Positions 16,025 through 51,850 of a DNA stretch of 64,000 nt are shown here, one piece after another. Every line of letters begins with the position of its first letter. Positions within the stretch are counted from its first letter, which is position 1. The stretch is from Trichobilharzia regenti. Its lineage: Eukaryota; Platyhelminthes; Trematoda; Strigeidida; Schistosomatidae. The stretch covers positions 85,198,319-85,262,318 of the forward strand of contig OX235264.1 in NCBI GenBank assembly GCA_944472135.2, given 5' to 3'. The notes below the pieces were generated by a model that saw only the letters and a list, made by a program, of their open reading frames with translations, had not been told where the DNA came from and searched no databases. A program made the position numbers and the translations under genes.

Positions 16025-16297
16025 TTGGCAACAGAATACCGTTAATTGGCAGAAGTTGGAATTCATGCACTGGTCATTGGATCGGGTCAAAGTGACTTAA
16101 TGGTGTACGAGCTGGCTTGCCTTGTAACCAGAAGTACCTGGGTTAGAATCCCACTGTGTGGTTGCGTACTTCTGGAGAATGCCAAACTAGGACGAAACAG
16201 CTGTCCAGTACTCCCAGGTTTTCCAATGGTTCTCTAACCAATGTCAGCTAATGATGAAATCCTGTAAACCAATCAAATCCCTACAAACCAACACTTT
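16025..16297 (+). mobile_element. tRNA-like SINE with hammerhead module
   Basis: Upstream block GAATTGGCAGAAGTTGGAAT-like, then a tRNA-like section (AAGTGACTTAATGGTGTACG as A box, GGGTTAGAATCCC as B box), the ribozyme module (16164-16213), and the conserved 3' part GTTTTCCAATGGTTCTCTAA ... GATGAAATCCTGTAAACC. It is immediately followed by an oppositely oriented SINE of another family. Confidence 0.7.
16164..16213 (+). ncRNA. Hammerhead ribozyme-like module (degenerate copy)
   Basis: Stem I strands GTACT and AGTAC flank the module. The second conserved box GGACGAAA and palindromic stem III (ACAGCTGT) with cleavage triplet GTC are intact. The first box reads CTGGAGA instead of CTGANGA, and the 5' strand of stem II (GTCC) is changed to TGCC, so this copy is probably inactive. 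Confidence 0.6.
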
Positions 16298-16528
16298 TTT
16301 TTCCTTCACGTTCCCAGTGGAACATAAAGCTTCAAGTTAGAGGCTTGAAGTTTCTGTAGCACTGGTGATTACTTTTACAGAATGGGGTTGCTAGCCTCAT
16401 GCCCAACATTTCCTCTTATCAGTCTTACTACTGGCTTAGTGAGGTAAAGGAGTGCGCCGGCCGAGGTTCGAACCCCGGACCACTTGCATGGTCGACAAGC
16501 GTCCTAACCGCTGTGCCGCCGACGCACT
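16298..16528 (-). mobile_element. tRNA-derived SINE with RTE-2-like tail
   Basis: On the minus strand: tRNA-like head 16443-16528 (GTGCGTCGGCGGCACAGCGG, then GGGGTTCGAACCTCGG), a body with GGCATGAGGCTAGCAACCCC, and a tail GAAGCTTTATGTTCCACTGG that matches the RTE-2 LINE 3' end, plus a short A run. The acceptor-like ends (GTGCGTC and GGCGCAC) still pair over 7 bp. Confidence 0.8.
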
Positions 16529-16620
16529 AAATATCAGGTATGCGTCGGCAGGGGATCGAACCTCGAACCATGTGTATGGTTGGCGAGCGTCCTAATCGCT
16601 ATGCCCCTGACGCAATGCTA
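16529..16620 (-). repeat. Second tRNA-like SINE head joined to the previous SINE
   Basis: The minus strand reads TTGCGTCAGGGGCATAGCG, GGTTCGATCCCCTGCCGACG and ends ACCTGATAT, identical in order to the start of the CR1-tailed SINE at 47714. It stops at ATAT and is followed directly by the head of the RTE-tailed SINE. Confidence 0.7.
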
Positions 16621-19134
16621 GAATACCGTATATATTTGAACATTCTATTTCATGTCATTTACTGTATATCTAAATCACACGCTCAGTGATTGGTTAAAGC
16701 ATATGAACTATATACATATAAATAGTAGTTTAATCAATTGAAAATATCCGTTGGCTTCCATGTCTTGCCTTCTGCTGTTATAGTAAGAACTAACACAATG
16801 TAAAACTATTCACTCCCTAAGAGCCAATCATTAAATCTGAAAGAATTTTTTTTTGATGAATAAACTAATTTTGAAAATCACGTGATCCTTTTTCCACCTT
16901 TGAAGAATATGATTACAAACGTACAATATTTGAAATCCAGAGATCTCTTACAACGCTAATGATACACTGGGCCTTGAATTGGTCATCTTAGTAGCTCTGA
17001 TATTCATCACAATTAAATTAACCAGCTCAGAGAACAGAACTAAATCAAAATCACTATCGAGATAGAAAATGGTTCTACTTACATATCTTGCACTTAGTAT
17101 CAAACAAAACCAAAATTTTGGGATAGAAAGTGACGAACTGATTGTAATTCATAGCCAGTTTTACTAGCTGCCAAAAGACTTCAATAACTAGACAGTATGC
17201 AGAAAAGCTCATCAAGTTAAATGATTTGTTAGATTTCTATAAAGGAAAGAGAGAAATGAAACGAAATGAACGTATCATATTTCATATTTCCTGAAACTTC
17301 TAGCTAAAATTCATTTTACTTAAAGAGGATTTCCAATGAACACACTACAGTGGATTATGTTTACCATCCAAATTAGTAAAAAAACTCGTGGTAGATTTAA
17401 AATAACAAGGGTACTTTAGAATAAGAGTAAACATAGTCATACTTTATAATGGGAACCTGGCAATTGCATCAAACTGTAGTTTAAGCACTTACGAAAACAA
17501 TTTCAGCATTATAAATCAATAAAGAACATGTCCCATGGAAAAAAAGTGAACTACAAAGTTAACAACATGATGAATACTGATACAAGTCACTCAAAGAATA
17601 AGAAAAGCCCTGAAGGCAACCAGGGCTTAGTCGACGAAATCAGAAAAAAAGCGGTTTTCTTGTTCGTGAAGATCCCCTCATTTAGAAATTAACGATGAGA
17701 ATTTTGCCTAGGATTGACAATGAAAGCCTCACAGTTAAACCAGTCAGCTCAGTGAACATAATAACACAAAAAACCTACCTCGCCTATAAGTGATTTGCCT
17801 TTAAAATGAACCTAAGGTTCCAATTCATCAGTGTGAAGTACAGTTTTATGTATATATTTCAAGTTGTAACCGTATATGGCCTAAGAAATTACATTTAAAA
17901 TAGTAGTAGTAATTGAAATTAAGTTATGTTCAATTCTCTATTCTTCATCTTATAGCTTATTTCAAAAATAAAGAATATATATACTCTTCAAAACTTCAAA
18001 GAATTCTCAGAGTTAGACAACTGTTAATGACTAATTCCTTATCATAGGGAAAATTAACAGACTTTCTGATCAAAGTCAGTCGTTTGTAGTGAAAGAAAAG
18101 TGTGATGAAAAAAAGGTTAAAAGCTAATTAAAGTTAAAATAGTTTTATGCCAGTAAAGAGTTTACTCCACTAGTAGATGATGTATCCAATCTTCTCTTTA
18201 CCACTATTATTTCTTTTAAGTGAGATATTGTAGTTGTGTCTACTTTAAGTTAAACACCAATTTCTATTTTCGATTCGCTGTTGTTGTTGTTGTTGTTTGC
18301 ACTTATAAGTTGGTTGTAAAAGAAGTGAACAAAAAGTAAAAAGAGGCGAGAAATTGGCAGAATAATAATGATAACACCACTAACAATGAAATAACATCAA
18401 TTGAAATAAGAGGTAGTTAACACATTTTGATTATCTGGAGATTTTCATTTTTGTCCTTTGATGAAATAGGTCAGTGAAGTGTTTTTATAATGAAGAAGTA
18501 ATTATTATGTTTGTGATAACGATCAAAAGAGAGAGAGAGAAAAAAAAATACAATACAGAAACAAGTGAGTAATTCAAGTTGAGTGTCTTTTTGAATTTTT
18601 CTGTGAAAGTAGCGTTGTTCATTTTCTTGGATTCTAGATCTTTTAAGGTCACATCAAATTAGAAAATAAAAAGCGATGGAAGTGGAATAAGGAATAAGGA
18701 AGAGAGAAAAGCGAAAAAAAATAATTATCAGCCTCCAGCTTAAAAAAAAATAGATAAACATTTTATGGGTTAATTGGTTGGTGTATTTTGAAAGTGATAA
18801 ATTCTTCTATAAATAAATAATAAAGTGAAATTATAATAAATAACAAATACCCAAATTTTTTTTCGCAAACTGTTAAAAGTGAACTTGGTTTGGCCATATA
18901 TAAAATAAAGTGAAATGTTTTAATGTATAATTGAATGACTAGATTTCTAGTTTGAACGTAGCACGCAACGTTAACTCTGTTAACCGTATCCTTGATTATT
19001 ATCTTTGTGGCATCAAAAATCATATAGGGGAAGAGTTATTAAAACAGTCTTGGTTTACATTACTCCATTACTAAAAAATCGTTAAGTTTTATGCTTGCTT
19101 TGATGCCAATATGAGCAGTTATTTAGGCTGATTG
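16621..19134. other. Unassigned AT-rich sequence
   Basis: About 2.5 kb with no supported gene. A (GTT)n run lies near 18281-18298 and AT-rich frames such as 18763-19023 lack any domain. Confidence 0.4.
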
Positions 19135-19435
19135 TTTGGTTACAGGGTTTCGTCATGAGCTACCATCGGTTAGAGAACCATTGGAAAACCTGAGAGTACT
19201 GAACAGCCATTTCGTCCTAGTTTGGGACTCTTCAGAATTATGCACCCACAGGGATTCGAACCCACGACCTTCTGGTTACAAGGCAAGCTTGTAGACCATT
19301 AGGCCACTGGGATCCGATCCAAGGGTCCATGAATTCCAACTTCTGCCAATTTAGAATATAGCACGACCACTAGTCAGTGTCTTAGGCGAATATTTGTCCT
19401 CACCCCCGACCTGCTGTACCCTACAAATCAATACT
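19135..19435 (-). mobile_element. tRNA-like SINE with hammerhead module
   Basis: Minus-strand order: GTGAGGACAAATATTCGCC block, GGCAGAAGTTGGAATTCATG, tRNA-like part (CAGTGGCCTAATGGTCTACA as A box, GGGTTCGAATCCC as B box, nearly perfect polymerase III boxes), hammerhead module (19194-19243), GGTTTTCCAATGGTTCTCTA, and a 3' end GAAACCCTGTAACC. Confidence 0.8.
19194..19243 (-). ncRNA. Hammerhead ribozyme with both consensus boxes
   Basis: The minus strand has box CTGAAGA (fits CTGANGA), stem II GTCC/GGAC with loop CAAACTA, box GAAA, and a short stem III followed by GTT and CAGTACTC. The stem III palindrome has one change (ATGGCTGT for ACAGCTGT), and the 5' strand of stem I is altered (ATAATT against AGTAC). 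The catalytic boxes are the best preserved of all copies in the window, but the pairing is weakened. Confidence 0.65.
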
Positions 19436-19779
19436 TGAATAAGCTAGTTGTGTTACACAAGAAGCAGTACTGAAATAAAGCATGATAATACCACACAGAC
19501 TAATCTTAAATGAAATTATATTCGAACATATTATACAAACTATACATTGAATTAACATTGTTATCTGTGTTTTATATTATGGAACATCACTTAGCGGTTT
19601 TGTTGAGTTAAATCTAAATTAATAAAAACTGAAGGCAGTCGTTATGTGTGGAGAACACAAAACATCAAATAAAAGTTAGATCAAACAGGCCTCAGTTTAT
19701 CACAAATTCTGTCATTATTTGAAAGCAAACTGGATTTTGGCCGACATAGAAAGAAATTTTATCAGGTTTATTGGGCAAT

Positions 19780-19965
19780 AAAATTTATTATTAATTTTTA
19801 TATTATAGCTTGATTCCACACCGTATTTTTGGTACAGGTATGGAATTTTCAGCATGTGATATCAGTAGTCCAAATTTTGCAGGCCGACCATTGATACCAG
19901 GTGTGCATCGGCAGGAAATCGAACTCCGAACATGTGTATGGCCGGTGAGAGTCCTAACCATTATT
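19780..19965 (-). mobile_element. tRNA-derived SINE with CR1-like tail
   Basis: The minus strand carries a tRNA-like head remnant (GGTTAGGACTCTCACCGGCC), CTGCCGATGCACACCTGGTA, GGTCGGCCTGCAAAATTTGG, and the tail GCTGAAAATTCCATACCTGT ... GTGGAATCAAGCTATAAT. This tail is the 3' end of the CR1-like LINE at 38510-38613. Confidence 0.7.
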
Positions 19966-20134
19966 TTTCAACTAGTTAGTAGCAGTGATATGTGTGATCT
20001 TATTAAAGAATATTTTGACATTTATCAACTGCTTTCGAAACTAATCTGATGAACCATAATTCTAACAACTCACCTAACATAAACATCAGTGAAAAAATGA
20101 GGAAAGATTGAGTACTTTAAATTATTGTCTTCTA

Positions 20135-20785
20135 AGAGTGAAACTCCAACTGGCAGAAGAAACAGTGAAGACAGGACTTCAAGTGAACATAGCGAAGAGA
20201 AGTACCAATCACCACCAATGGAAGAAAGTGCACTTTCACCTATCTGAAGTCAGTGTGAGAATCTTTTTCTCTACGTCAGCTTAAAGAACAAAATTCAGAT
20301 TTCCAATAGAAACTTTAAATTTGTCCTTCTATATGGGTCAGGAGCTCGGCCATTATGTCATGCAAAGTATCTTTAACAGGCTACTGCGGAATTTTATCAG
20401 CAGCTGTCTTCACTGGTTCCATATTAAATGTTAGATAGCCAGAAAGAGTTAGCAACAAGAGCTAGCTGACTAGAGACCAACCAAGAACTTATCGTTCATC
20501 AAGTATGTGTGAGAAAATGAAGATGGATTGGGTACACGCTGGAAAGATCATCGAATGTCATCACGAACCAGGCTATGGCTCCAGTGCAGCCCGAATTGGA
20601 AACGGCAAGGTACATATGGGTTAGAGGGTGAAATGGAGGAGACGTCACGATAAGGAGATCAGAGACTATGAAAAATCATGGAGCCAGCTAAAATGGACTA
20701 CAGAAAATGGGACAAAGTGTGTACATGTGCTACTGAATCCTTATGTTCCATTCGGAAACCAATGGAACAATTATAACAAATGCAA
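20135..20785 (+). mobile_element. Old RTE-2-like LINE 3' fragment
   Basis: It follows the 3' third of the RTE-2 copies in order: CTGGCAGAAGAAAC with GACTTCAAGTGAACAT, a [12 protein letters not shown] box (CTATATGGGTCAGGAGCTCG), the GGATTGGGTACACGCTG region and the tail GAATCCTTATGTTCCATTCGG. It is more diverged than the copies at 11482 and 24446. Frames are broken. Confidence 0.65.
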
Positions 20786-21685
20786 TATAAGTGAAATTAT
20801 TAGTTTAGGAAAAACTATTTTAAATTTTATCATCAGTAACTTAAAAATACCGCAGAGGGCTAAGTAGCTGATCATGAAAGGCTTAAATGTGACTGACTGA
20901 TTCAGTAATTATCTAGACATCATCTATAGGAGTATTTTTTCTCATGCATCCTACACTTATTATTGATTTATGTGTTCTCCACTGGATTGTATATCTGATT
21001 ACTTTCAGTGTATCTACGGACTGCTAATTGATTTGGATACCGATCTTCAAAAGTTTCACACTTTTTCAATGCCATTTATGCAACATTTCTCCATATTCAA
21101 TGGTCTGAGAGGATCTTTATATTGACAAATTAGACGTCAACTGATGCTCACTTACATCGAAGACCAGATGGGAGACTGCTTTTCTCATTGTCGGATTCTT
21201 TCCGAGCTACTGAAGTTAACCTTTGAGACTTTACCACGACTGTTTATTTTTTTCTGACTCACGTTTTAGCCTGCTGGATATACAGTAAAGGTATTTATAC
21301 GTTTATAAGATACAGTGGTTTCAGAAAGCTTTAAAATTGTAATGGTGATCTCCAATTGACTTTCTATTCATGGTAATATACTCCTTCTTTTAGTTTCACA
21401 AACTACTCTGTAATTAACTGCGAATATTTTAAACATACCTTGATAAAATTATTTGAATTTCTGTGCTTTCTTGGATGAGAATTTTGTGATCAAGTTACTC
21501 ATTTAAAGAAACCAAACTCAGAAAAAATCGTCTTATTGAACTGAATATCCTTCTCCTGATCTCAAAGGTTAAAAGTCTCTAAAGGATCTAATCAAAGGGA
21601 AACTTAGAATCAACTTTTATGGTTGTTTGCATTCTTCGGCAACATTAAGCTATTCTAATCTCAACTAAATGCCTAAAATTTGACA
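20786..21685. other. Unassigned AT-rich sequence
   Basis: No gene or recognised repeat. Confidence 0.4.
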
Positions 21686-21740
21686 ATACATCCAGATGAC
21701 GAGTCCCAACTAGGACGAAATGCGCATCCTAGATTCCACT
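21686..21740 (+). ncRNA. Hammerhead ribozyme sequence of the schistosome alpha-SINE type
   Basis: Stem I strands ATCCAG (21690-21695) and CTAGAT (21729-21734) pair at 5 of 6 positions. Box 1 is ATGACGA (consensus CTGANGA with the first C changed), stem II is GTCC/GGAC closed by CAACTA, box 2 is GAAA (21717-21720), stem III is the palindrome ATGCGCAT, and the cleavage triplet is ATC before CTAGAT. Downstream ATTCCACTGCCAGTCACC also fits what I recall of the S. mansoni alpha element. The first-box change suggests this fossil is inactive. No long SINE body is evident around it. Confidence 0.7.
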
Positions 21741-22144
21741 GCCAGTCACCATCCACCAGTTGAATGCCTAAAAGACTGAGTTATTTATGCCTGGTGATAT
21801 TTTTAACAAAATCTTGTTAAGAAGTGAAGTATAGTAGTAAGTTACATGAATTTTGAGTTATCGTTTTTCTTATATTTACCTAGATGTTTATGCAGTTTGT
21901 CAACGTGTTTTACTTCTTAACAGGGTTTAATTCTGAAGATGTTATGAAGTCTGCTGGCACGACATCTATGGTCAAATGTAAAGGCTTGGAACACTAGACG
22001 AAATTAGTGAAAACTTTTAAGTTATCTTAAATCTTCTGAGTACTCAGTTATGTATGATGACTGTCCGTTGTATGATTAGGCAGAAAACGATTTGAAGGAA
22101 TTGTTCTGTCAAGTTTCTTTATTAAAATCTGATATCTGGAGGGA

Positions 22145-22540
22145 AACTTTTTTATCATGCGCTGACATCAGTTAGAGGACCATTGGAAAACCTATGGGGA
22201 GTACTAAACAGCTGTTTCGTCCTAGTTAGGGACTCTTCATCAGCACGCACCCACCGCGATTCCAACACACGACCTTCTGGTTACAAGGCCAGCGAGATCG
22301 TAGACCATTAAGCCACTGGGAGCCGATCCAATGACCAGTGCATGAATTCCAACTTCTGCCAATTCACGATATAGCGCAACCGCTAGCCAATGTCTTCGGT
22401 GAGTATTTGTCCTCACCCGCGACCTTCTGCACCCTACTGGTCAAGACTTCGCACTGGAACTGCAGGTAACTACCTACCTGAATAGGGCCAGTAGCCAGTG
22501 AGCATCTCATTGGTATTCAAGTATTGGTTTGTAGGGATTT
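22145..22540 (-). mobile_element. tRNA-like SINE with hammerhead module, near full length
   Basis: About 390 bp, very similar throughout to 26522-26934. On the minus strand: 5' block ending CTACAAACCAATACTTGAAT, CTATTCAGGTAGGTAGTTAC, GTGAGGACAAATACTC, GAATTGGCAGAAGTTGGAAT, tRNA-like part (CAGTGGCTTAATGGTCTACG as A box), hammerhead module, and GGTTTTCCAATGGTCCTCTA at the 3' side. Its right end overlaps the start of a large inverted repeat. Confidence 0.8.
22199..22248 (-). ncRNA. Hammerhead ribozyme module (C3-to-A copy)
   Basis: The minus strand has stem I GTGCTG/TAGTAC, box 1 ATGAAGA in place of CTGAAGA, stem II GTCC/GGAC, box 2 GAAA, stem III ACAGCTGT and cleavage triplet GTT. Only the first core base departs from consensus, a change expected to abolish activity. 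Confidence 0.65.
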
Positions 22541-22760
22541 GGTTGATTGGTTACAGGATTTCATCATGAGCTGACATCAGTTAGAGAACCATTGGAAAAC
22601 CTGGGAGTACTGGACAGCTGTTTCGTCCAGAAGTTAGAGTCCCAAACTAGGACCAAAAAGCTGTCCAGTACTCTCAGGTTTTTCAAGGGTTCTCTAGCCA
22701 ATGTCAGCTCATGATGAAATCCTGTAACCAATCAACCAAATCCCTACAAACTAATACTTG
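22518..22760. repeat. 111-bp inverted repeat (hairpin) made of two SINE 3' parts
   Basis: Left arm 22518-22628 and right arm 22650-22760 are reverse complements with few mismatches and the same length, separated by 21 bases. Both arms are the hammerhead-SINE 3' part (from the GGACGAAACAGCTG region to CTACAAACCAATACTTG). Each arm stops inside the ribozyme, so neither is complete. Confidence 0.85.
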
Positions 22761-23332
22761 GAAAATTTTTAAACAGCTAAAACGTCTTTCTAATGCAGTA
22801 TTAAAATGATCATGTAAGTAGACATTTGCCTTGTATTTAACACTGGTTTCCTCATCAATAAATCAAATGTAGAACAACCAACCATCCTTTAAAAACCTAG
22901 TTGATTGTCTAACCACCTTTAACATAATTCCTTCCATAAATTTCCATATTTGAGTTTATCCTTATCGCATAAATATATTTCACTTCTATTGATTACAACA
23001 AACAAATTCATTCTTTGTCATCGTCTTCTGCTTGTAGGCTATTTTGAATTAGTAGTGATAATCATTTCAACCAGTGATCAAAAATATTTGCTGTAAACCT
23101 TACAAAACTCTACGCTCATTGTATATAGTGTATAATTTCTTCAAATCAAAACTCATTCATACACAAGCATACAGTATAAGAAATATACGTCTATATGATT
23201 ATATCTAGAATAGATTTGTACATATATACAGAAGAAAAACCATTATGTCTTCTAAAAAAAATCAGAATATGCAGACATTGAATAGAATTCTACAATATCC
23301 TAGACATAAAGATAAGCATATACTCACTCACA
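22761..23332. other. Unassigned AT-rich sequence
   Basis: No gene or recognised repeat. Confidence 0.4.
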
Positions 23333-23368
23333 TACACACACACACACACGCACACACACACACGCATA
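23333..23368. repeat. (CA)n microsatellite
   Basis: CA repeat with single CG interruptions. Confidence 0.9.
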
Positions 23369-23589
23369 CAGATATTTTCAGGAAAATTAGATAATTTGGA
23401 TTTTTCGATGGAATTCCGAATGACCTATATACATACATATATATATATTGTACCTTGAGGGTGCGGGGAAAAGACTAATAGGAATAGGATTATTAATTAA
23501 CCATTGTCTGATAAGGTTGAGCATCATGATGTTGTTGGTTTTGTTGATAACAGTGGGGGTTGATAAAAAATGGCCATACTAAGCATAAC

Positions 23590-23648
23590 ATTACTACTAC
23601 TACTAGTATTATTATTATTATTATTATTAGTAGTAATAATAATAATAG
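23590..23648. repeat. (TAT/TAC)n trinucleotide repeat
   Basis: TACTACTAC changing to TATTATTAT and back to TAGTAATAAT; a translated glycine-free poly-I/V frame here is an artefact of this repeat. Confidence 0.85.
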
Positions 23649-23876
23649 TACTGAAAATAAAACTTTATTCATCACCATCCATCCACACTGTCGTCATCAC
23701 CATCAACTCGACAAAAAAGATTGAGAAGAGAAATTGAAGATAATTAAATTTGTCAGATACTTAAGAGGAAATCGATTTGATAATGTGAAGGGGTAACAGG
23801 AGAAGAGAATAATAACGAGAACAGAAAATGCTAACCTTTGAGGACAATTGGTGAAGTTAATCAAACACTATAAGGC

Positions 23877-23912
<36 letters not shown>

Positions 23913-24430
23913 ATATAAGTAGTTTCTGTAAAAGTTAAACACAGAAAAAAACTATGAGAAAAAGAAGAAAAAAAGTTTCCCTGAATATTCTTCACCAATG
24001 AATATACATATTGGGATAAAGAAAAGGAGAAAGAAAATGAAAAAAAAATATGAGGCAACCAGAACCAAGAATGCCTTTCATTCAGCACAGCCTTTGTATC
24101 TCATTCTGTTTTTTCCTATTTCGCTTTCAGTTATTCGTTGAAACGAGAAAAAAACGATATCTGCGGATTAGTTGAATAGTGACTGGAAAAATAGAAAAAT
24201 GCAAAGAGAAGCGAATATATATATATACAAAAAATTCACAAATGAATTAGAATATTACAGGAGATTAGTAAAGATTATTGTTTGTGATTGGAAATTTTTC
24301 TTTTTTTTGACTTTGAAACATTGAAGCAAAATGGAATCATTGAGTAGTTGGTTGATTTTCGCTTTCAAATGAACTGAATATCTGAGGATGAATATGATAA
24401 TCACTCATTGAAAGACAATTTCTATAATAT
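23649..24430. other. Low-complexity sequence with (TA)n at 23878-23909
   Basis: Purine-rich (GAAAAAG-type) and TA-repeat DNA. The minus-strand frame 23861-24088 is a low-complexity artefact. Confidence 0.5.
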
Positions 24431-25749: not shown

Positions 25750-25990
25750 GTAGACATCAGTTATAGAATTATAGAAAACTACTAAGTATTCATCCATGAC
25801 CTTATTGAGGATCGAACGAAGGTTACTAGGCGAACCCGTTAACCATTCAGCCACTAAGATAGATTGTGATGGCCCATGAATTATAAATCCTGCCAGCCCA
25901 CGATACATACCAACAGAGTCAGCTAACGTCATCTGAGAGTATCTGTCCTCATACCCGGCTTGTTGAGTGGCACTGGTCACAGCTTCTCAT
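25750..25990 (-). repeat. Old copy of the hammerhead SINE family
   Basis: Minus strand: GTATGAGGACAGATACTCTC, GGCAGGATTTATAATTCATG, TTAGTGGCTGAATGGTTAAC as A box, and CCTTCGTTCGATCCTCA as B box. The ribozyme part is not recognisable. Confidence 0.55.
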
Positions 25991-26510: not shown

Positions 26511-26945
26511 GATATCCTATGAATTGGTTACAGGATTTCATTATGAGCTGACATCAGTTAGAGAACCATTGGAAAACCTGTAGGGAGTACTAAACAGCTG
26601 TTTCGTCCTAGTTTGGGACTGTTCAGCAGCACGCACCCACCGCGATTCCAACCCACGACCTTCTTGTTACAAGGCCAGCGAGATCGTAGACCATTAAGCC
26701 ACTGGGACCCAATCCAATGACCAGTGCATGAATTCCAACTTCTGCCAATTCACGATATAGCGTAACCGCTAGCCAATGTCTTCGGCGAGTATTTGTCCTC
26801 ACCCCAGACTTTCTGCACCCTACTGGTCAAGACTTCGCACTGGAACTGCAGGTAACTACCTACCTGAATAGGGCCAGTAGCCAGTGAGCATCTCATTGGT
26901 ATTCAAGTATTGGTTTGTAGGGATTTCCTGTAGGGATATCCTATG
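26511..26945 (-). mobile_element. Full-length hammerhead SINE with 11-bp target-site duplication
   Basis: GATATCCTATG at 26511-26521 and 26935-26945 flanks a 413-bp element (26522-26934). The minus-strand order is the same as at 22145-22540, including the tRNA-like A box CAGTGGCTTAATGGTCTACG and ribozyme module. The perfect duplication shows it moved as a retrotransposed unit and fixes the element ends: 5' CTACAGGAAATCCCTACAAA, 3' CCTGTAACCAATT. Confidence 0.85.
26584..26634 (-). ncRNA. Hammerhead ribozyme module (G8-to-C copy)
   Basis: The minus strand has stem I GTGCTG/TAGTAC (six pairs with wobbles), box 1 CTGAACA (one change from CTGANGA), stem II GTCC/GGAC with loop CAAACTA, box 2 GAAA, stem III ACAGCTGT and cleavage triplet GTT. 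Confidence 0.65.
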
Positions 26946-28599: not shown

Positions 28600-29935
28600 C
28601 ACCGTACGGGTTAAAGACTTCTTGAAGACTGTCTTTAAATATTATAGAGAAGATCTGTAGCTCAGGTGGGTGATTTTGATATGGTTATGTTCTCTGAGCT
28701 GGATGGTTAATTTGCGAAGCTTTCATCACCCTACTAGGTGAAATCTTCAGCGCATACTTCAATTCGAGGAAGTGAGCTTTTAGATTTCTCCACGAGTTTA
28801 TTAATCATCTCTGCTGGTGATCTGGGACGTGATTGGTTGCTTTCGTGTGTTTTCACACCTTCTAGGCAGCTACTTGTATTGAAACTGATTGTTTCTTTGA
28901 CTTGAACTTTGACCCTTTGTGTGTGAGGTTACTTTCTCATCGGTTGATAAATTTTGTCTATCTCTATGTGTCTATTGATTGATGATTCAGTGGAATATTA
29001 GGCTGGCTTCTAAAAATTCTTTAGCACTCTTGTTGTTTCCTCTGTCTAATATTTGAACACTGGTTGTCTCAGTCGAATTGATGTCTGTGGTTGTCTGTAT
29101 GCAGCTAGTGATATGAGCGAGGGAGTGGATATCATGTCTTTTGACGGCTAGCTTATGATCGTGGATTAGAAGATGAAGAGGAAGGGACGTCCACTTTGGC
29201 CAATGTAGTATTTTCCGCAGTTGTTACAATTTATTTGTAGATACTGATGTTGGTTTTATCTTCGTTTGCTGTTGAGTCTTTTGGTTGACGTGGAATTGAG
29301 CGAAGTGACTTTGTTGGTTTGTGTACGACGTCAGTTCCTAAAGGTCTGAAGAGTTTTGTAGTGATTTCTGAGATATCCTTTATATATGGTTAGGAGATTT
29401 TCTTTGTGCTTTCCTTGGTGGCTTTTGCTTTGATAAGTTGGCTTGGGGTATATGTCTTTTGATGAAATTCCGTGGATATCCATTCTTTTGAAAGACGTCC
29501 ATGAGATATCTTTCTTCAATTTTCCTTAAGGTATGAGTCTTTGCTCTCTTGAATAGAGTTTTTATTCATTTCCTTTTATGTGTTATTGGATTTTTGCTGT
29601 TGTAATTCAGGATTTAGTCTGTGTGAGTTGATTTTCTATAAACTTGAGTTTCTAATTCCCCTGTGGTTGTTCGCTTGACTAAGACGTCTAAAAAAAATGG
29701 GATTTTGGTTCTCGGATTTCTCTCCTCTTGTGGATTTGACGTCGATGAAGACGTTGCTTATGAAGTTGTGAGTTTTATCTAACTCGTTTCTTCTGATTAT
29801 TACAAATGTGTCATCAACGTAACGTATCCAAATCTTGGGTTTGATCTTTGGTAGAATTATGTTTTCGAGCCTTTGCATCACTGCTTCTGCAATCAAACCT
29901 GATATTGGCGATCCAAAAATAAATTGTAACAACTG
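28600..29935 (-). mobile_element. Penelope-like element, 5'-truncated and decayed
   Basis: The minus strand holds the second half of a Penelope-type RT: SPISGLIAEAVMQRLE, then IRYVDDTFVII with the catalytic YVDD (29636-29932 frame). A frameshift follows, then the region with ERYLMDVFQKNGYP-like and GIYPKPTYQS-like residues, and a GIY-YIG endonuclease remnant (CGKYYIGQSGR near 29215). A C-terminal region rich in polar residues extends to about 28640. It is interrupted by stops and frameshifts. It is only distantly similar to the Penelope copies at 36300 and 59930. Confidence 0.8.
29636..29932 (-). pseudogene. Penelope-like reverse transcriptase fragment
   Basis: A 98-codon piece of RT from a Penelope-like retroelement, covering motifs 4 to 5. 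SPISGLIAEAVMQRLE corresponds to the conserved SPxSPxLAE motif and YVDD (in IRYVDDTFVII) is the catalytic pair. About 60 residues further on, the frame is lost at a GEKSENQNPIFF-type position where a PFLDV motif is expected. Upstream sequence is absent beyond 29935, so the fingers domain is missing and no activity is possible. Confidence 0.78.
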
Positions 29936-37602: not shown

Positions 37603-37639
37603 TGTGAAAGTGTCATCCGCTTGAGCTTAATCCGTCTAA

Positions 37640-41970: not shown

Positions 41971-42059
41971 ATAATCCACTTTATTGTTGATTTTTAATAA
42001 TTCCACTGTCTAATGCAAACCTGTTAAGAAGACATCTTCACTCAATTAGTTTATTATTA

Positions 42060-42385: not shown

Positions 42386-42934
42386 TTTTGTTTTTAATTA
42401 GATTGTTAGCCAAAAAGTAATAATTTTTACTTCCCTTATATGTCTTTTCATTAAATCATCAATGATTCCCCATATAATCTGAATGAATGATTGTGGAAGA
42501 GTCTGAACATTATAAATTGTACCAATGCTATGAACTGAATTACCTAGCACATCACTCTGACAATTTTTCTCCATAAATTTGTCTGAATTTAGTGCTCATG
42601 TCGAAGGTTCAAAGCGGTCTAAATATAATGAACATAATTTATTTTACAATAAATGTTCTCCTTCCTATACAAGACTTACCATAAAAAATTCTCTTACCTC
42701 ATTTGAAATGAAATAATGAGCTTCGTAAAATTTACGTGATTTAAACGACACCGTTGTCCTTCCTTTAACGTCTTAAAAGCAGTTAACTTTCTAACTTGTG
42801 AATATAAATGTTTATAAATAATATAAATACCATGTGACCATTGTCCGAAATTTTCCGAATTCATACCTAAATTTCTTTCTTTTTACATTATACAGACGAT
42901 GGCTAAAAATAAGGTTTTATGACATTAAGCGTAA
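42386..42934. other. Unassigned AT-rich sequence
   Basis: No gene or recognised repeat. Confidence 0.4.
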
Positions 42935-43510
42935 AGTAATATTTGTGACAGAATAATCGATACAAAAATCCCATAATATTTTTCATAATATTGGTACTTA
43001 TTTGAATATTACAACTAATGTTTGTAGTTATCACTACTTTTCTTTTATTTGCATGTCATAGTCTTAACATATCTTCTTTTAACTTAATCCTTATTTGCCT
43101 TATTTGTTTGCCTCTTTGATTGATCCTCTCTCTCCTTTTAAGGCTGCTTTTTTGTGTTGTGTAATAAGTATTAGTAATAATGTGTTGTTTAACAACAGTG
43201 TGACTGAATTTAAGGATACTGATTGTTTGACTAGGGAATTTTCTCGGCAAACCTCTTTTATTCTGTTTTGCTGGTAATGAATGTTCTTATTGATTTTCAG
43301 TCAAGTTAAAGTTGTGTTTATTTAGTTAATTTTAGTGTACAGTAAGTATTTTGTACATGAGAAACTTTTGAACTATATTGCTGCTGGATGGTACTTGTTG
43401 AAGTAGTTTTGTATTTTTGATATAATTGGTATCACATATTTTTATAATTGACAAGTATTTTCGCTGTTGTGGGAATATAATTTCAGACCCTGCATACATA
43501 ACTCATGGGA
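42935..43510 (+). repeat. Unknown interspersed repeat, copy 2
   Basis: The longest recognisable copy of the family: GGTACTTATTTGAATATTAC near 42996, AACTTAATCCTTATTTGCC, CATGAGAAACTTTTGAACTA, CTTGTTGAAGTAGTTTTGTA. It has no long frame, tRNA-like boxes or terminal repeats. Confidence 0.5.
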
Positions 43511-43899
43511 GTTTGACAAATTGTAAAGTAAAATGTACTGATTGGTTCAGACTATTCACACTTAAATAACTATACTTACCCATAGGTTCCTTACAGCATA
43601 TGAGCTAAACAATTCCCCTGTTGCTGATTATTGTTGATTTATTAATACAACTTTACTCGCTTAACTGAATACTAACTGTTTTAGTGAGCCGCTCAAAGAT
43701 GATGTTGCCGAAAAAACATTATTGTCGGTGAATTAACTAACGTTTGACAGGCTATTTTTATACTTTTGTGAATAGTTCATTGTATTTGCCAATTATAACG
43801 CATACTTCAGTTGTTAAGCGAATTTTCGCCAAAATCAAACAATAATAGTGCCTAAGATTGTATTATTTAAATTGCTTTTACCTATGTACAGTGAGCCTA

Positions 43900-43941
<42 letters not shown>

Positions 43942-44274
43942 ATGTATAAATATACATATATATCCTGTGTAATTGAATAATTGTAAGTATGCTTACTCCA
44001 TGTATATATTATTTTTCGTATTGGTGATGCTTGTAAACTGGTGTCCACCATTTACAAAAACAGAGAATATATATATATTATTAAACCGTTGTTATTTCAG
44101 ATTTCCTGTTTTTAGGGAATTTGAAAGACATTAAGAAAGAAACTAAGACCATTCAAATGACTGTTAATGCAAAAAGTCTGACATATATGCCTAAATAGAC
44201 GATTCACAGCTAATGGAGCACAACCTTTGGATATACAGTCTTTTACACAGAGATTTCTCACTGAATGAACCAGT
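43511..44274. other. Unassigned sequence with (TA)n at 43903-43938
   Basis: No supported gene. A short open stretch after a TTTCAG at 44100 (to a TAG near 44197) is too weak to call an exon. Confidence 0.4.
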
Positions 44275-45040
44275 AGGGTGAGTGGTGTCCCAGTGGACCA
44301 CATAGTTAACGTCGTTGTCGATAGGTACTTGACTTCGTGCAATAAATTTGCTGAAGGGATTTTGTCTGACTTGGAGCATCCACTTTATCCTCAGCTTTCA
44401 CCTTGCATCTCCTCAGATACAACAAGAAGTAACTTCAGAAAACTGTATGCTCGCACGTCTAAGTATAAAAATTCTATGATACCATACTTGACACGTATTT
44501 TATGTGATGAAAATAGTGTCAGGCAAGAATTAACTAACCTTTTTTCATCTAGTAAATAAACAATTTCCTCCATCCATCCTTATATATACCTTCAAGTTTT
44601 ACTTTTATTATTTCCATTATATTTATGATCCTGTTGCTTCTTTGTTTTACTCTTATAACTGCAAACACCAACTTATCTCCATGACTGCTGTAATCTTGGT
44701 TTTTCCCCTCACCATAACATGTAAAGAGAACATTACATTCAATATTTTTAAACATGTTAGGATTTCTATACCACATTGCCAATACTGTGTGAAACAAGCC
44801 CACAGTAATTTTCACTTGTATTATTATTACCCTAGCTGTTATCATTATTATTATTATTTCCATTTTATATGCTGCATGTCTTTGACATTACCCCTATTGT
44901 AATTGTGGAAGATATTCCGTGTGATTAATTTTTATTTATAATTTGAGGAAATTAGATGCAATATTGTGATTAATGCTAAAAATCCCATTATGTATCACAA
45001 GTACTGTTTTGGGAATAAAGTAAAACATTATTATTATTTC
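44275..45040 (+). mobile_element. CR1-like LINE 3' end
   Basis: A 5'-truncated copy: coding tail 44278-44559, then about 370 bp of 3' UTR, ATTAGATGCAATATTGTGAT, GCTAAAAATCCCATTATGTA, CACAAGTACTGTTTTGGGAA and TAAAG plus a TTATTATT tail. It belongs to the same family as 37621-38613. Confidence 0.8.
44278..44559 (+). pseudogene. CR1-like polyprotein C-terminal fragment
   Basis: 93 codons from an in-frame ATG ending at the natural element stop. The sequence aligns with the 37803-38288 fragment: VDHIVNVVVDRYLTSCNKFA, LEHPLYPQLSPCISSDTTRS, LYARTSKYKNSMIPYLTRIL and a short variable end. It starts in the region after RT, so it contains no catalytic residue. The frame is intact only because it is short. 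It differs from the other copy at about one residue in three, so the two come from distinct subfamilies or old insertions. Confidence 0.78.
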
Positions 45041-45364
45041 CCTCATAAATTTGAGGACTTTGAAAGAGTGCAGCTAATCTATTGAATTACCATAACTTAC
45101 CTTCTGTCGTGAAGCACCATTATGATTTCTCAACTATTCAAAAAGTGAACTTATCATTTAATGAAGATATGGCGAGTGTTCTTATTATAACCAAAGATAA
45201 TGAAAAATGAATTCATATTTTAGGTTTTGTAGTCACATCGGTAAAGCTTAATGCACATTTCACCACAAAAGGGTATCGATCAGTTAGTTCATGAAATCAG
45301 TATGCGGTAGGGCGATATCACGGTATGTTGGAGGTTAAAACCTACCGGTTATTAAATTCCAACC
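45041..45364. other. Unassigned sequence
   Basis: No gene or recognised repeat. Confidence 0.35.
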
Positions 45365-45545
45365 CATTAGCTGTATGGTCAATTGGCTCGTCATGTAGCC
45401 TAAAGATCAGGGATCCGAACTCTGGTGTAGTTGTCGATGCTTACTGTTACAAGGCCTCAAACTAGGACTCAGGATCTATCCAAACCTCCCTGGTTTTCTA
45501 TGATTTTCCAACTGATTTCAGTTCTTGAGGAAACTTTCACTGTTG
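45365..45545 (+). repeat. Old copy of the hammerhead SINE family
   Basis: TGGCTCGTCATGTAGCC and GGGATCCGAACTC stand for the A and B boxes. CTCAAACTAGGACTCAGGAT is the former ribozyme stem II region and CCCTGGTTTTCTATGATTTT the 3' part. The ribozyme is destroyed. Confidence 0.5.
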
Positions 45546-46074
45546 CAAGTGGCCTTACAATATTCCAAAGCCATCATTTTTTTCATAAGATTAATGGATG
45601 TTGAATAAAGTCAAAATTTTGGTTTTAAATTGTGTAATTTTTGTTGTATTCATTTCTAATACTTTAGTAATTTATTGTGTAGTGCATTGATGGTGCAATA
45701 AAATCTGGTAATTAATCGAACTTATGCACTTTTATAAAATTCAACCTTCATTGCTGCAGTGAACATGAATGACTTGCAAAACGGTATATTTGTATGTAAA
45801 CACTTTATCTTACAAAATTTTATGTTTTCCCATCGATTATGCTATAAAATATGATTGCCACTCTACCTTTCAAGTTTTACCAATTCACTAAATAATCAGA
45901 TTGTAAAGACTAAATCATCTCTATTCACAGTGAAACGGTTTCTTGATTATTACACTGATTCAACTAGTCAGTAGCGCTTCTTTATAACTGATATAAAAAA
46001 AGTTGAATGGAATGTATTTAGAATAAAATTATACACTTTAGTCCATGAATCTCACAGTACAAGTTTGTTGGTAT
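45546..46074. other. Unassigned AT-rich sequence
   Basis: No gene or recognised repeat. Confidence 0.4.
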
Positions 46075-46200
46075 TAGATGATTGAGGCAATCTGCAGGAA
46101 GCCTTGGGTCTAGGTTTCGTGCCAGCTGAAACTCACCAGTCAGCAAGACATACCTGCAACCTTGGAGAAATTCATATCCCTCCTGATGAAGAGCCACCTA
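46075..46200 (-). repeat. Degraded copy of the 28215-28405 SINE
   Basis: ATTAGATGATTGAGGCAATC and GCCTTGGGTCTAGG followed by AAGACATACCTGCAACC match the minus strand of the SINE at 28215. Confidence 0.45.
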
Positions 46201-47713
46201 GAATCGTGGCCACATTGGAAAACCTTACGGATAGAATTTAAACCGTACTAAATAAAGGACTAGACACACCAGGCTAATTACTGGTGTCCAATGATGGTAC
46301 AAGTTGGTTCATACTACATTATTTAGATCATGTTTTCATAGTCCATAAAGGAAGTGGATTTTACAAATTGACACTAAATACTACAAAAATGATACTCTGT
46401 GTCTTAGAGTAACGTTGGATTAGAAATCATCACTTGACTACTGATTGGCTATCTACTTATTTTACTGAACTTGTGTTTATATTCTGACGTAATTCTCGTC
46501 ATCGATCGGTAAGCTACTGATCCACAGAATACTAAGTATCCCTATGTATACGTCTTTTCTTAGATTGTAACTTTGTCCGACCTTTGAAGACTATTCAGTA
46601 TAGAGGGTAACTGATAACTGTTAACCCTCTCAACAACCATATAGTCACCGAGCGATTGATACAAGGCCAACTGGTACTGAAAGTAAAGAAAAAAACCCAG
46701 TAGTAAATCACCCTCTCTCTACCAAAGTCGTGTGTATAGAGTGTCTATCTCAGTCTTTTTGTGCGACTAAACATCTAATATACGTCCATACCAGCTATCG
46801 GTTGTTAGTGATATTTGACCTCAACCCCTATTAAATAGAAAATTTCACTATACAGACCTTTAAATCTCTCTAAAATATCAAGGAAAGCTAGGTTCAAATT
46901 TTAAAGAACATTTTACCAATATATTTTTCACCAGAGGAGTGTCATTTATGCAAACGTTTACGCCAATAAACTGAATAGCCTAGCCAGCAGAATACAGTAC
47001 TATTGATTTAAGAATAGAGCTTGGACACTGTGATAGACAGAGGTAAATATGACATTAGCTAAGTTTGTTTCGAAGAACATACCGTATTAGTATGTGTTTG
47101 AAACGTCGCTAATACTCTCTCATCGGGTGTTATATCAAGTGAACTCATATGATACAACATCATCCTAGGAAACTTATACCGTATGAACACAGGAGGTTCT
47201 GTATCTAACCAACAGGATTTATTCTTTATCTTTCAAAAGATGCGTAAGCAGTAAATTTAAATAATTTAGTCAGTTAAGGCTGTGGTGAGAGATGGTTGCT
47301 AGCAAAAGTTGGTAGACAGTAATTTATATCAATGTTTTTTCCCCAATATTGGTCGTGAGAAAAATAAGAACAAAGGCCTTGAGTAGGCGGACACACTCAA
47401 CATATAGATGATCTGACATTCAAGAAACAGTCACAAAGAGATGCAAGGTTAACTTACTGTGAGAAACAACCAATCAGAGGACTGTGTTTGTCTACTAACA
47501 ATAATCTATATTAATGTACATGAAAATCTATAAACATGTGTTGATTTCCTTAATAAACGATTTGTTTCCTGGACCTTGTCTTCTGTTGTTACAAGGGTAC
47601 ATTTTGTGATGCTCATAGTCTATCAATGATTTCATGCTGATTTATTCCAATCACTTTAAGCTCTAAATGTTACTTTGATCCATTCATTAGGACTAATCGT
47701 CTAGTTTTACAAC
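46201..47713. other. Unassigned sequence
   Basis: No supported gene in 1.5 kb. 46990-47160 weakly resembles the Penelope 3' region at 36300-36440 and contains a compact hairpin (47067-47104). Confidence 0.4.
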
Positions 47714-47900
47714 TGCGTCAGTGGCACAGTGGTTAGGAATCTCGCCGACCATCCACATGGTCCCAAGTTCGATCCCCTGCCGACGTACACCTGATATCTA
47801 TGGTCGGCCTGCAAAATTTGGGCTACCGATATCCATGCTGAGAATTCCATACTTGTACCAAAACTACAGTGTGGAATCAAGCTGTAATCAAAAATAAAAA
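47714..47900 (+). mobile_element. tRNA-derived SINE with CR1-like tail, best copy
   Basis: It starts TGCGTCAGTGGCACAGTGGT (A box) and AAGTTCGATCCCCTG (B box). ACCTGATATCTATGGTCGGC, TGCAAAATTTGGGCTACCGA and the tail GCTGAGAATTCCATACTTGT ... GTGGAATCAAGCTGTAATC with an A-rich end follow. The tail resembles the CR1-like LINE 3' end (38545-38600). Confidence 0.78.
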
Positions 47901-48449
47901 GTGAAAAATAATATACCTATAGTTCCGACTCCTTCAATATACTACAACATGACGATATCCATCAGATACGTGTTTTCATCCTTTTGAGTTATCATTCTCA
48001 AAATTCAATATTTATGTAAACAATGTTTGTTTATCCATTTTAGTGAGTAATCATGGTTGAGTTCACATGATAAAATAGTAAAATGCCTGAGGAAAGCAAA
48101 TTAAGAGTCTCCCCCAAAAAATTTCTCAAAACGACCTTGTTTTGTTCCTAATATTTGCGATTGAGAAATTGTTTATATGTGAACTACATAATAACCCCTT
48201 AAATATAGGGATTACATGGTAGAGCATAAATCATTCGATATGTGAATGTATCACATAATATCGTAGATGATAGAGGGAGATAAAATATATATATATAGAA
48301 AACACTCTTCAAATAACTTTCCCGTTCCAAAACTAGTTGAACATAAACATGATTCATTTTCTCCCCTAATATTATCTATTGCACGAGAACAATAGCCTAG
48401 AGTTGAAAACAACTTATTCTCAGCGATGACTGAAATTCGTACTTATTTT
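47901..48449. other. Unassigned AT-rich sequence
   Basis: No gene or recognised repeat. Confidence 0.4.
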
Positions 48450-48625
48450 TATTCCCTTACCTTTTCAGTGAAGCATAGAGCTTCAAGCTAGAGCCTGGAA
48501 GTTCGGGTAGCAGTTGTGTTTATTCTTACGGGATGCCGTTACTGGCCTCATGCCTAACCTTCCATCTTTACCAGCCTTATTACTGGCTTAGCCGAGGATT
48601 GAAACCCGGACCGCCTGCGTCAAAG
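48450..48625 (-). mobile_element. tRNA-derived SINE with RTE-2-like tail, 5' truncated
   Basis: Minus strand: CCGGGTTTCAATCCTCGG as the B-box region, GGCATGAGGCCAGTAACGGC body, TCCAGGCTCTAGCTTGAAGC and a tail CTCTATGCTTCACTG. Confidence 0.65.
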
Positions 48626-49227
48626 AAGGAGAAATGGTTGGCAGTTCCCTACACAAGACTGTAGATATCAAAAAATCTAAATTTAGTCTTTCATATATAG
48701 CTGCCTTAAAAGTTTGTTTCTAAATAAAATTTACTGTTTCGTATGACTTTCAGAACTAATCAGAATGTGAATTGGTCTAAACTTTCCTTTCCACATCAAG
48801 AAGGAGAATTAAGTGAAATGCTAGTCACTGTCAAAGGCTAAACTTGCTGATATCATTCTGCTTATGACTGGGAGTATTAGTTTACCCTCAAATTCACACC
48901 ACAGTGTAAACTTTATTTACTTTAACTGCTTCATTCATTAAATATAAATAAAGTCACTGTATCTCAGTAGATAACTGCGAAGTGATAGTCCAAACACTTA
49001 CTCAGGTTAATGGATTACTTAGCTTAAGTAATGTTGAAATTATTTTAGAGATGCCCACTATTATCAGTTAACTCATCTTGCAATTACAAAATGCATTTCA
49101 GAAAAGTATATATCTTCTTATTCGAGTCAGACGCAGCTGTGGATGAACCTTTTTACATTTATAGTTTATGAATTTAAGAACTAACTAAGCCTATTCATTT
49201 GCATACAGTTTAATATGCTCGCAGTTT

Positions 49228-49445
49228 TTTTTTTGCATTCCTCACGTTCCTAGTGGAACATAGGACTTTAAAAGTTAAAGTTTCAGAAGCAGTTGTGTTA
49301 TTCTCTTTACGCAGTGGGGTTGTATTAGGCCCATTGTCAACCTGTCATCAATTCTCGTTTAACAATAGACTTGGCAAGATTTAGCAGCGTGTCCGCCGGC
49401 AATCGAACCCGACACTCCCACATGGCTAGTGAACACTGCACCACT
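49228..49445 (-). mobile_element. tRNA-derived SINE with RTE-2-like tail
   Basis: Minus strand: head with GTGCAGTGTTCACTAGCC and GTCGGGTTCGATTGCCGG, body, and tail CCTATGTTCCACTAGGAACG followed by an AAAAAAAA run. Confidence 0.7.
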
Positions 49446-50694
49446 AAAAAACCATCAATGCATTTTAACGAGAAATTTATAATGAATGAAGAAAAGAGAT
49501 TCTGAAACCCAAAAAATTCCTGCTACTCCAAAGTATCAACGCTTAGCATCATTTCTAACAAGTTCATAAGATTTATAATTACTTTCTAACTTATGCACAA
49601 TAACAGTAAATTTCTTTTACGTTTCAATTATTATTTAGCCCATCAATCATCACCAAATTTAATTAGTCGTAATTGTAAGGGTGATAGAATCATAGTAAAA
49701 GATACAATTATAACAAATTAGAAGTACTTTTAATATAAGAAGATAGGAAATTCCCAAACGATATTTAATGGTAGGATAAAAACTAGAACAAAATCCATTC
49801 AAGCTAATGACATTCTGATTTATACAGATGTCGTATTAATCATTAATTTATTACATTCAAGATCTCCACGTAGATAATTAAAAAGGAAGAAAATGTACAA
49901 TAAAGCGAAAGTAACAGTTTAATTGCTTCTTTGGTGGTAATGACGACAGTTTACCGAAATGAATAGTCTTTATATATTTTCGTTATGCTTGTCTCTGTAA
50001 ATATACGACCATATTGATCAACCATGTCATACTATTTCATCAAGAGCACAGTCAGTATTTATTTGAAAGTCATTGGTAATTCCAGTGCGATATACTGAAT
50101 TTTCTGTAATCCTTTTGTAGGTACACTACATGTTTTGATACATAGCTGAAAACACAACAATCAAAAAAGCTTAGGTATTCATGACTAGGTGCCATATACT
50201 AGAAAGTCAGCATACTCTTATTGATCGACAAAATCATATTGACAGAAGCTGGAAAAAAATTTGTGACTGAACTCCAATATGCATACGTTGACACTTAAAC
50301 CATCACCAATTAGAGGAACAAATATCCTAAGCTGCTTGTTTTCAGAGAAAGTTTTTTAGCCGGTGCCATTTTGAGACGTTGTTTAATTGTAAAGTAAAAA
50401 TGAATGACAGTATAATTTTAAGCCTCAGATTACTGTCTAATCTGCACGTGTTAAAATCTCAACTTCGGCTAACTGACAGGCAAATCAGTATTTGGATGAA
50501 CAAGGAATCAACTCAAATTTATATCAGAGGAAGTGCTTCACTGAGCTTTACATTTGGTGTGCTCAGCTCGCGTTAGTTAAACAATACATTTAAAGTGGCA
50601 GGGAAAAGTAAGTGAAAATATTCATTAGCATCAATTTTCCTTGTTTTAAATATGTAGTAGAGGCCTTTCAATATTAATCCTTGTTTGACTACAA
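49446..50694. other. Unassigned AT-rich sequence
   Basis: No supported gene; the frame 50379-50576 has no domain. Confidence 0.4.
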
Positions 50695-50760
50695 ACAGAC
50701 AACAATTAAAGAACCACTGAAAGCTAGAGAGTACTGGAGAGCTGATTCGTCCTAGTGTCA
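50695..50760 (-). repeat. Fragment of the hammerhead SINE (ribozyme and 3' part)
   Basis: Plus strand GAACCACTGAAAGCTAGAGA, GTACTGGAGAGCTGATTCGT and CCTAGTG correspond to the 3' half of the module with stem III altered. Confidence 0.5.
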
Positions 50761-51234
50761 TAGCAGAAAACTGTGATATTTGGTAGCGGAATTGTTTATT
50801 TGGGTCAAATAACGGACAGTAATGGTAAAATATAGAAAATTTACATTGAAAATTTAATTTGCAAAAACTACTCATGTTGTGATTCTTTTGTTGTTTCCTA
50901 AGGATTTTCATTTCGTCTCTTTGCAGTTTAATACGTCGTCCCGCTATTCAATATTCTTGCAGTTGATGTTACCAGTACACTACTTATTTATGAGACAAAA
51001 AAAATTATAATTGTAATTCAGTAGATTGTTGGATTTAAAGCAAACTGACGACATATCATTATGTTACTGATATGACTATTTCCATCAGTGAGCTGGACGA
51101 CCAGAAAGTTTAGGAAGAATTCTTGACTGTCTGTCAACTTGTGGTGGTGTAGCACATTATGCATTTTCACTGATAAAGGCTAACAACGAAAAGCATTATT
51201 ATTACTGAATAATGATACCTTATTTAAGTTTGAC

Positions 51235-51495
51235 CAAAGATTGATGTCAGTCAGAGAGCTGTTTCGTCCTCTTTTGAGGCTCTTCAATAGTACGCACCTA
51301 CTGGAATTCAAAGCCATAACCTTTTGGTTACAAGGTAAGCCCGTAGACAATCCCCACACTGGGACCCGGACCAATGGCCTATGAATTCCACCTTATGCCA
51401 ATTCGTGGTTTTTGCGCGTCCACCAGCCAATGTCACGGCCAGTATTTGTTCTCACGTGATCCGGTATGAAACAAATCAAGTCCCTTCAAACTAAC
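51235..51495 (-). mobile_element. tRNA-like SINE with hammerhead module
   Basis: Minus strand: GTGAGAACAAATACTGGCCG, GGCATAAGGTGGAATTCATA, tRNA-like part with CAGTGTGGGGATTGTCTACG and GGCTTTGAATTCC, then the ribozyme module at 51252-51296. In this module box 1 is TTGAAGA and stem II is rearranged, while GGACGAAACAGCT is kept. It faces the copy at 51590-51850. Confidence 0.65.
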
Positions 51496-51589
51496 TTTGA
51501 AAATAAATCTGATACCCGTATATGACTGGCTACAAGACGAAATTGATTGGCGTTCTAATAAGAATTCGTGGATAGTTTAATCCTCCAGG

Positions 51590-51850
51590 TTAGACGTGAT
51601 GGTAAATCCTCTCCTATTGCACTGGCTGGTAGTGCAGCTAAAATCCTGAATTAGTAGAAGTTAGAATTAATAGGCCATTGCATCAGTTCCCTAAGACTGA
51701 ATGATCTACAGGCTTGCCTTGTAACTGGAGGGTTCTAACCCTGTTGGCTGCATACTACAGAGGAGTCCCGAACTTGAACAAGGCAGCTGCCCAGTACTCC
51801 TTGGTTTCCCAACAGTTCTCTAGATGATACCAGTTCCTGACCAAACTTGA
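51590..51850 (+). mobile_element. tRNA-like SINE with degraded hammerhead module
   Basis: Plus strand: GAATTAGTAGAAGTTAGAAT, GATCTACAGGCTTGCCTTGT, GGGTTCTAACCC as B box, then GCATACTACAGAGGAGTCCC ... GGCAGCTGCCCAGTACTCC (51749-51799), where stem I and stem III remain but the catalytic boxes are lost, and GGTTTCCCAACAGTTCTCTA. Confidence 0.65.

Follow-up and report, generated by a model that had tools for sequence, protein, structure and literature searches.

Insertion anatomy of a second tRNA-related, hammerhead-bearing repeat family in Trichobilharzia regenti

The genome of Trichobilharzia regenti (954,079,586 bases, of which 911 Mb lie in eight contigs of 58-198 Mb) carries a tRNA-related element of about 394 bp with a type-I hammerhead ribozyme (HHR). 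We describe it here starting from a stretch of 64,000 nucleotides, C3:85198319-85262318 (assembly GCA_944472135.2, contig OX235264.1), called the window below, and refer to it as the long family, as distinct from a Sm-alpha-like family of the same genome. Copy coordinates were defined by homology chains against the repeat unit; on this basis the window holds 10 long-family insertions. The features are collected in Table 1, and weaker relatives lie at 6597, 10649-10913, 25821-25989, 39301 and 59433. All six copies listed by the first-pass annotation of this DNA were found as homology chains. Those it had placed at 51235 and 51590 are both real, but they are two halves of one head-to-head insertion (51254-51455 and 51467-51858).

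Table 1. Features of the window and long-family tandem arrays elsewhere in the genome (bit scores of HHRs refer to the Rfam model RF00163; LINE, long interspersed nuclear element; LTR, long terminal repeat; RT, reverse transcriptase)
Feature	Position	Strand	Description
LINE open frame, 931 aa	3553-6345	-	RVT_1 and Exo_endo_phos_2 domains (endonuclease and RT)
Old head-to-head insertion, long family	10649-10693 and 10708-10913	- and +	Absent from the first-pass list
Long-family copy	16040-16296	+	Unit 240-397, then tail 1-90; HHR 16166-16211, 35.5 bits; first box CTGGAGA (broken)
Long-family copy	19132-19436	-	HHR 19196-19241, 27.5 bits; boxes intact, stem I 3/6 pairs
Sm-alpha-like HHR	21690-21734	+	57 bits, best RF00163 match of the window; first box ATGACGA (C3A); remnant 21687-21765; absent from the first-pass annotation
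Long-family copy	22150-22612	-	Left half of head-to-head insertion, about one full unit; HHR 22201-22246, 34.5 bits; ATGAAGA (C3A)
Long-family copy	22636-22760	+	Inverted partner (right half) of 22150-22612; unit 368-397, tail 1-91
Old long-family copy	25821-25989	-	Unit 155-325; HHR part without alignment
Long-family copy	26523-26926	-	Nearly whole unit (69-396, then 2-67); HHR 26587-26632, 37.6 bits; CTGAACA (broken)
Penelope-type 3' region	28634-28802	-	89% identical to 3' region of the L036 Penelope-type element; candidate mobiliser type
Long-family copy	51254-51455	-	Left half of head-to-head insertion; cleavage site and stem I 3' strand deleted
Long-family copy	51467-51858	+	Right half, same insertion as 51254-51455; first box CAGAGGA (broken)
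LTR retrotransposon pol, 1,083-aa frame	54231-57479	+	RT, RNase H and integrase domains; protease-like match below cut-off
Tandem array	C1:3878989 (L063)		13 units, 394-bp steps
Tandem array	C1:106570287		17 units, 399 bp
Tandem array	C7:11942429		At least 34 units, 393 bp, one step 392
Tandem array	C1:190336601		3 units, 400 bp

The long-family unit is circularly permuted, with tail, body, tRNA-like part and HHR in this order, and it was numbered by opening the circle at the predicted cleavage site (position 1). What had earlier been taken for a 5' extension is instead the remainder of this permuted unit, with no extra leader. The consensus, a draft, was typed from young copies, and the young set was picked by similarity to one window copy, so that "young" and "near consensus" are partly the same thing. 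Since the genome contains a 36-base word spanning HHR and tail 3,011 times and its reversed control not once, the matches are not due to chance. Abundance was assessed in a 200-kb sample of 20 places of 10 kb, at hand-chosen round coordinates, which contained 15 insertions of the long family and 7 of the Sm-alpha-like family. Scaled to the genome, this corresponds to about 71,600 long-family insertions (Poisson range 35,000-108,000), or 2.4% of all bases. Bases were read for 501 positions of the 13-unit array; the 107 bases covered in two adjacent units were identical. The GC content is 50.9% for the draft unit and 49.7% for the array unit.

The tRNA-like part was matched by the Rfam tRNA model at 21.6 bits (cut-off 29), and by ARAGORN under relaxed scoring only, as tRNA-?(Gln|Thr). 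Aligned to its counterpart in the Sm-alpha-like family, it scored 50, while the maximum among 500 shuffles was 38, although common descent from a tRNA could also explain why these parts align. The Sm-alpha-like family, which we take to deserve this label on the grounds of unit length and part order rather than a named record, is abundant in the genome, has a unit of 329 bp and gives hammerhead matches of up to 69.5 bits. Both families have a tRNA-like part, a type-I HHR and a tail in the same order, and both form head-to-head copies. The long family differs from the SINE-like elements Sm-alpha and Sj-alpha in its longer unit and in loop II, stem I, the tail and the 3' ends, and its alignment with the Sm-alpha-like unit described here is confined to the tRNA part and the HHR. 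Judged by sequence, it is a second family beside the Sm-alpha-like one. For comparison, sections of PMC8490949 give 332-335 bp for the unit of W36.2, the Sm-alpha counterpart in Schistosoma mansoni, whose Sm-alpha derives from tRNA-Gln-TTG according to part of PMC2770079.

We then assessed the ribozyme across copies. The core was scored as intact when the boxes CUGANGA and GAA, the NUH site and stems I and II were present. By these criteria it was intact in 11 of 16 young copies, in 1 of 19 copies of the 200-kb sample and in none of the eight scorable window copies or of the 16 long-family copies near Sm-alpha-like loci; the array unit passes by its sequence. The young copies, from 12 loci, gave 16 matches to RF00163, 15 of them at or above the 34-bit cut-off and the best at 54.1 bits, a score also reached by each of the two HHRs read in the 13-unit array. 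The long family accounted for 4 of the 11 RF00163 matches in the 200-kb sample. In the window, the cut-off was reached by three of its copies (26587-26632, 16166-16211 and 22201-22246). The first boxes quoted earlier, CTGAAGA (19196-19241), ATGAAGA (22201-22246) and CTGAACA (26587-26632), were read correctly, and the first of these HHRs scores low despite intact boxes because half of its stem I positions are unpaired. The genome has 2,439 occurrences, array units included, of a 33-base word that holds stem II, one stem I strand and both boxes, and each of the 13 units of the C1:3878989 array contains the intact core word. Thus, the first-pass annotation was right to propose a short tRNA-related element with a type-I HHR that goes back to an ancestor with an intact core. 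The covariance matches, whose absence it had named as grounds for giving up the idea, were obtained with real young copies and not with the consensus.

The same annotation had described different core mutations in each copy, which agrees with the data only in part. Among 46 copies (rows of more than 25% divergence or with fewer than 60 flank bases were dropped), the HHR differs from the consensus by 0.104 and the flanks by 0.115 (p=0.08), i.e., the ribozyme decays about like its surroundings, as neutral decay would give. Core position C3 is changed in 36% of these copies and U4 in 26%. However, some changes are shared. In a tree of 54 copies, left after removal of Sm-alpha-like rows and printed without support values, one branch (L011, L044, L036, L047 and L029) has U4C together with a tail variant peculiar to it, and C3A keeps reappearing in different branches. 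Since U4C and C3A are shared and not private, copies with changed cores have probably been amplified as well, the alternative being recurrent mutation. Single copies would seem to decay freely while an amplifying lineage keeps the intact core. A need for an intact ribozyme in mobilisation is probably not supported by these data; the spread of the U4C branch is in line with a lizard Penelope-like element (PLE), for which part of PMC11167929 reports that ribozyme mutants still insert in vitro.

The arrangement of the insertions is what seems to be new here. When long-family halves lie within 60 bp of each other, they are head-to-head in 16 cases, tail-to-tail in two and on the same strand in one. 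Among the first 100 places listed for the exact 36-base word there were eight head-to-head pairs and no tail-to-tail pair within 1.2 kb, and a second list of places gave three and none. When whole insertions are counted, the 15 of the sample include 3 that are head-to-head and one tail-to-tail, and the 10 of the window include 3 that are head-to-head and none tail-to-tail. Flank repeats of at least 8 bases (range 8-13 bp) accompany 7 of 45 insertions, compared to a shuffle mean of 1.2 and a maximum of 5, a weak excess that is nevertheless above the shuffles; an 11-base direct repeat flanks the copy at 26523-26926. In the 43 chains that run across the cleavage site, the 3' ends fall at unit positions 50-77 (25 chains) and 90-102 (17 chains), with one at 33. 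These are ends of lenient BLAST chains, for which chosen and sampled loci were pooled and both halves of head-to-head copies counted, and their modes near 61 and 95 are about 34 bp apart. In our literature search on PLE mobilisation of hammerhead short interspersed nuclear elements (SINEs) and on inverted schistosome SINEs, this anatomy appeared in no title or abstract start among the matches listed, coverage being incomplete.

In the Sm-alpha-like family, flank repeats of 8-15 bp were found at 16 of 39 insertions (shuffle mean 0.8, maximum 4) and the ends of copies fall at 32-52 or 153-161 of the unit. Its copies (L001-L030, L031, L043, L045) are often inverted head-to-head; the count of 29:3 comes from events that are not independent, because L001-L030 include overlapping or near-duplicate places. 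For the long family, we also considered that 5' ends are set by ribozyme cleavage as a genome-wide rule, a hint that came from L056, which starts at unit position 1, and from other young copies, which start at 16, 17, 24 and 26. This idea was dropped after pattern counts.

Taken with abundance and structure, we read the long family as a high-copy, non-autonomous, tRNA-related retroelement with a type-I HHR, of the SINE-like or animal retrozyme kind, mobilised in the following way, and assign this reading a probability of roughly 0.7. Transcripts of arrays would start at the tRNA-like promoter or arise by read-through, and the HHRs would cut the multimers into monomers of about 394 nt, which are possibly circularised. 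Starting at one of two internal sites, a Penelope-type RT would then reverse-transcribe the RNA into nicked DNA, and occasional copying from both sides of the break would produce the head-to-head copies.

A Penelope-type enzyme is held to be the likeliest mobiliser because the anatomy matches that described for PLE insertions and because a PLE frame is present in one of the fetched loci (L036); on its own, this attribution is tentative and stays somewhat below an even chance. Penelope elements have head-to-head inverted pseudo-LTRs, duplications of 8-10 bp and an optional 31-bp tail (sections of PMC3846280), and reverse transcription from two internal start sites, with both strands cleaved and extended, is described for PLEs in part of PMC11167929. 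The long family resembles the PLEs of these accounts in its HHR, head-to-head inverted copies, direct partial repeats and short flank duplications, and also in its two 3' ends 30-40 bp apart; unlike them, it has no coding capacity and no convincing sequence in common with them. On indirect grounds, PLEs are proposed as strong candidate mobilisers of animal retrozymes in sections of PMC7229834. A wider and equally provisional idea is that the tRNA-derived ribozyme SINEs of flukes, the long family and Sm-alpha alike, are satellites of PLEs, with internal starts and double-ended priming, and that the retrozyme and PLE worlds form one system. For the question of which enzyme moves short ribozyme-bearing elements in animals, the long family makes the PLE idea directly testable: its two 3' ends can be read in tens of thousands of copies and thus give predicted start sites for a PLE enzyme.

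Penelope-type frames were recognised by eye in five fetched loci (L003, L006, L012, L034 and L036). In L036, Pfam placed RVT_1 above and GIY-YIG below the cut-off, while no Penelope-type domain was matched in L006, L012 or L034. A genome-wide GIY-YIG search returned one match with 150 of 1801 candidates scored and is not evidence of absence. Penelope-type 3' regions were also seen at L036:4360-4480 and in L032, L046, L028 and L037. In L036 and at window 28634-28802, a hammerhead-like core (CTGAAGA ... GAAA, by eye) stands at the end of the coding part. A 3' tail shared between the long family and PLEs looked promising for L036 and was not reproduced with three other PLE copies; the old branch was equalled by 24-67 of 300 shuffles in the comparisons with L036 and L046, and by a larger number in the remaining comparisons.

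Several points weigh against this account. The transcript, its cleavage and the circle are all inferred from sequence. The tRNA match stays below the cut-off, and tRNA-related stretches may align without kinship of the elements that carry them. Because the U4C branch has spread to at least five fetched loci, the ribozyme may be dispensable for retroposition. Head-to-head copies are a minority of long-family insertions. Full-length copies on contigs C1-C4, arrays excluded, show no preference for starting at the ribozyme cut: about 68-89, 91 and 103 copies are estimated to have their left end at or beyond -15, 1 and 17, respectively (pattern sets of 41, 42 and 73 places), the value for the leftmost anchor depending on an assumed match rate of 0.46-0.60. 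As to the enzyme, Pfam supports only one of the five frames identified by eye, L036, with a sub-threshold GIY-YIG in L003. When the tails were compared, shuffles did as well in 1 of 1000 and 0 of 300 trials for L036, and in 24, 121 and 223 of 300 for the three other PLE copies. In the Sm-alpha-like family, the two 3' ends are separated by about 110-120 bp and not by 30-40, and LINE-type frames are available as well, for instance in the window (Table 1).

Of the alternatives, a strict circular-RNA retrozyme, in which tandem cDNA arises from repeated rounds on a ribozyme-made circle, overlaps with our explanation and fares best, although we would place it a little short of even odds. It would account for copies that exceed one unit in length and repeat their ends, some sharing private variants in both repeats (L054, L056, L060 and window 22150), and for an array with perfect HHRs. 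However, the repeats differ at 16 of 152 columns in L058 and at 11 of 79 in L060, and overall divergence is similar within and between insertions (0.044 and 0.053).

It is less probable, and on balance unlikely, that the long family is an ordinary tRNA SINE moved by a LINE of the RTE, CR1 or R2 type, with inversions due to twin priming and the ribozyme as a passenger. Target duplications occur with LINEs too, so the flank repeats suit this view, and so do the LINE-type frames and the lack of robust tail sharing with PLEs. It is harder to reconcile with the orientation of the halves, since both outer ends of head-to-head copies are the element's own 3' side (16 versus 2 and 8 versus 0), and published PLEs offer a closer parallel to the two favoured 3' ends and the direct partial repeats. 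It is very improbable that the family is a classical satellite, with array pieces dispersed by recombination or as DNA circles and not by retroposition: long regular arrays do exist, but 42 of 43 3' ends fall into two classes (50-77 and 90-102), flank repeats exceed shuffles and 87 of the 100 listed word places lie outside the 13-unit array.

The nearest known elements are W25.2, W26.2 and W27.2 of S. mansoni, which form tandem arrays of units of 415-428, 399-402 and 403 bp, with 39,648, 25,162 and 55,303 autosomal pieces, respectively; in these sections of PMC8490949 their HHR is described as type I with a very short stem III and weak similarity to Sm-alpha, and a possible target duplication is noted for W25.2. 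In vitro, cleavage was seen there in three of the five HHR candidates tested (variants of W25.2 and W36.2). W25, W26 and W27 are deposited under HQ880231-HQ880233 (PMC3701142). The long family is similar to the W-elements so described in its array units of 393-400 bp with an HHR and in its estimated insertion number. Unlike in that account, it has a tRNA-like part (the word "tRNA" occurs zero times in the main text of PMC8490949), and head-to-head anatomy is not described for the W-elements in the sections concerned. Judging from size, copy number and motif, the three are likely orthologues of the long family. Metazoan non-LTR retrozymes, according to parts of PMC7229834, are repeats of 150-450 bp with a type-I HHR that occur as dimers to long multimers, have target duplications of more than 4 bp when present and are low in GC. 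The long family likewise forms short tandem repeats with a type-I HHR; its tRNA-like part sets it apart from the retrozymes described there, and its GC of 49.7-50.9% compares with less than 45-50% for them. Literature searches with sequence words of the long family found no relevant paper, and those for hammerheads in Trichobilharzia found no paper.

Two further observations were made outside the long family. At window 16453-16620 (minus strand), two tRNA-like B-box stretches stand in a row by eye, possibly another short SINE without a hammerhead; the tRNA model scores 21.0 bits at 16453-16525, below the cut-off. Locus L038 has a partial small-subunit rRNA match at 1339-1743 (104.5 bits, model positions 32-596), which may be a pseudogene or a repeat derived from rRNA.

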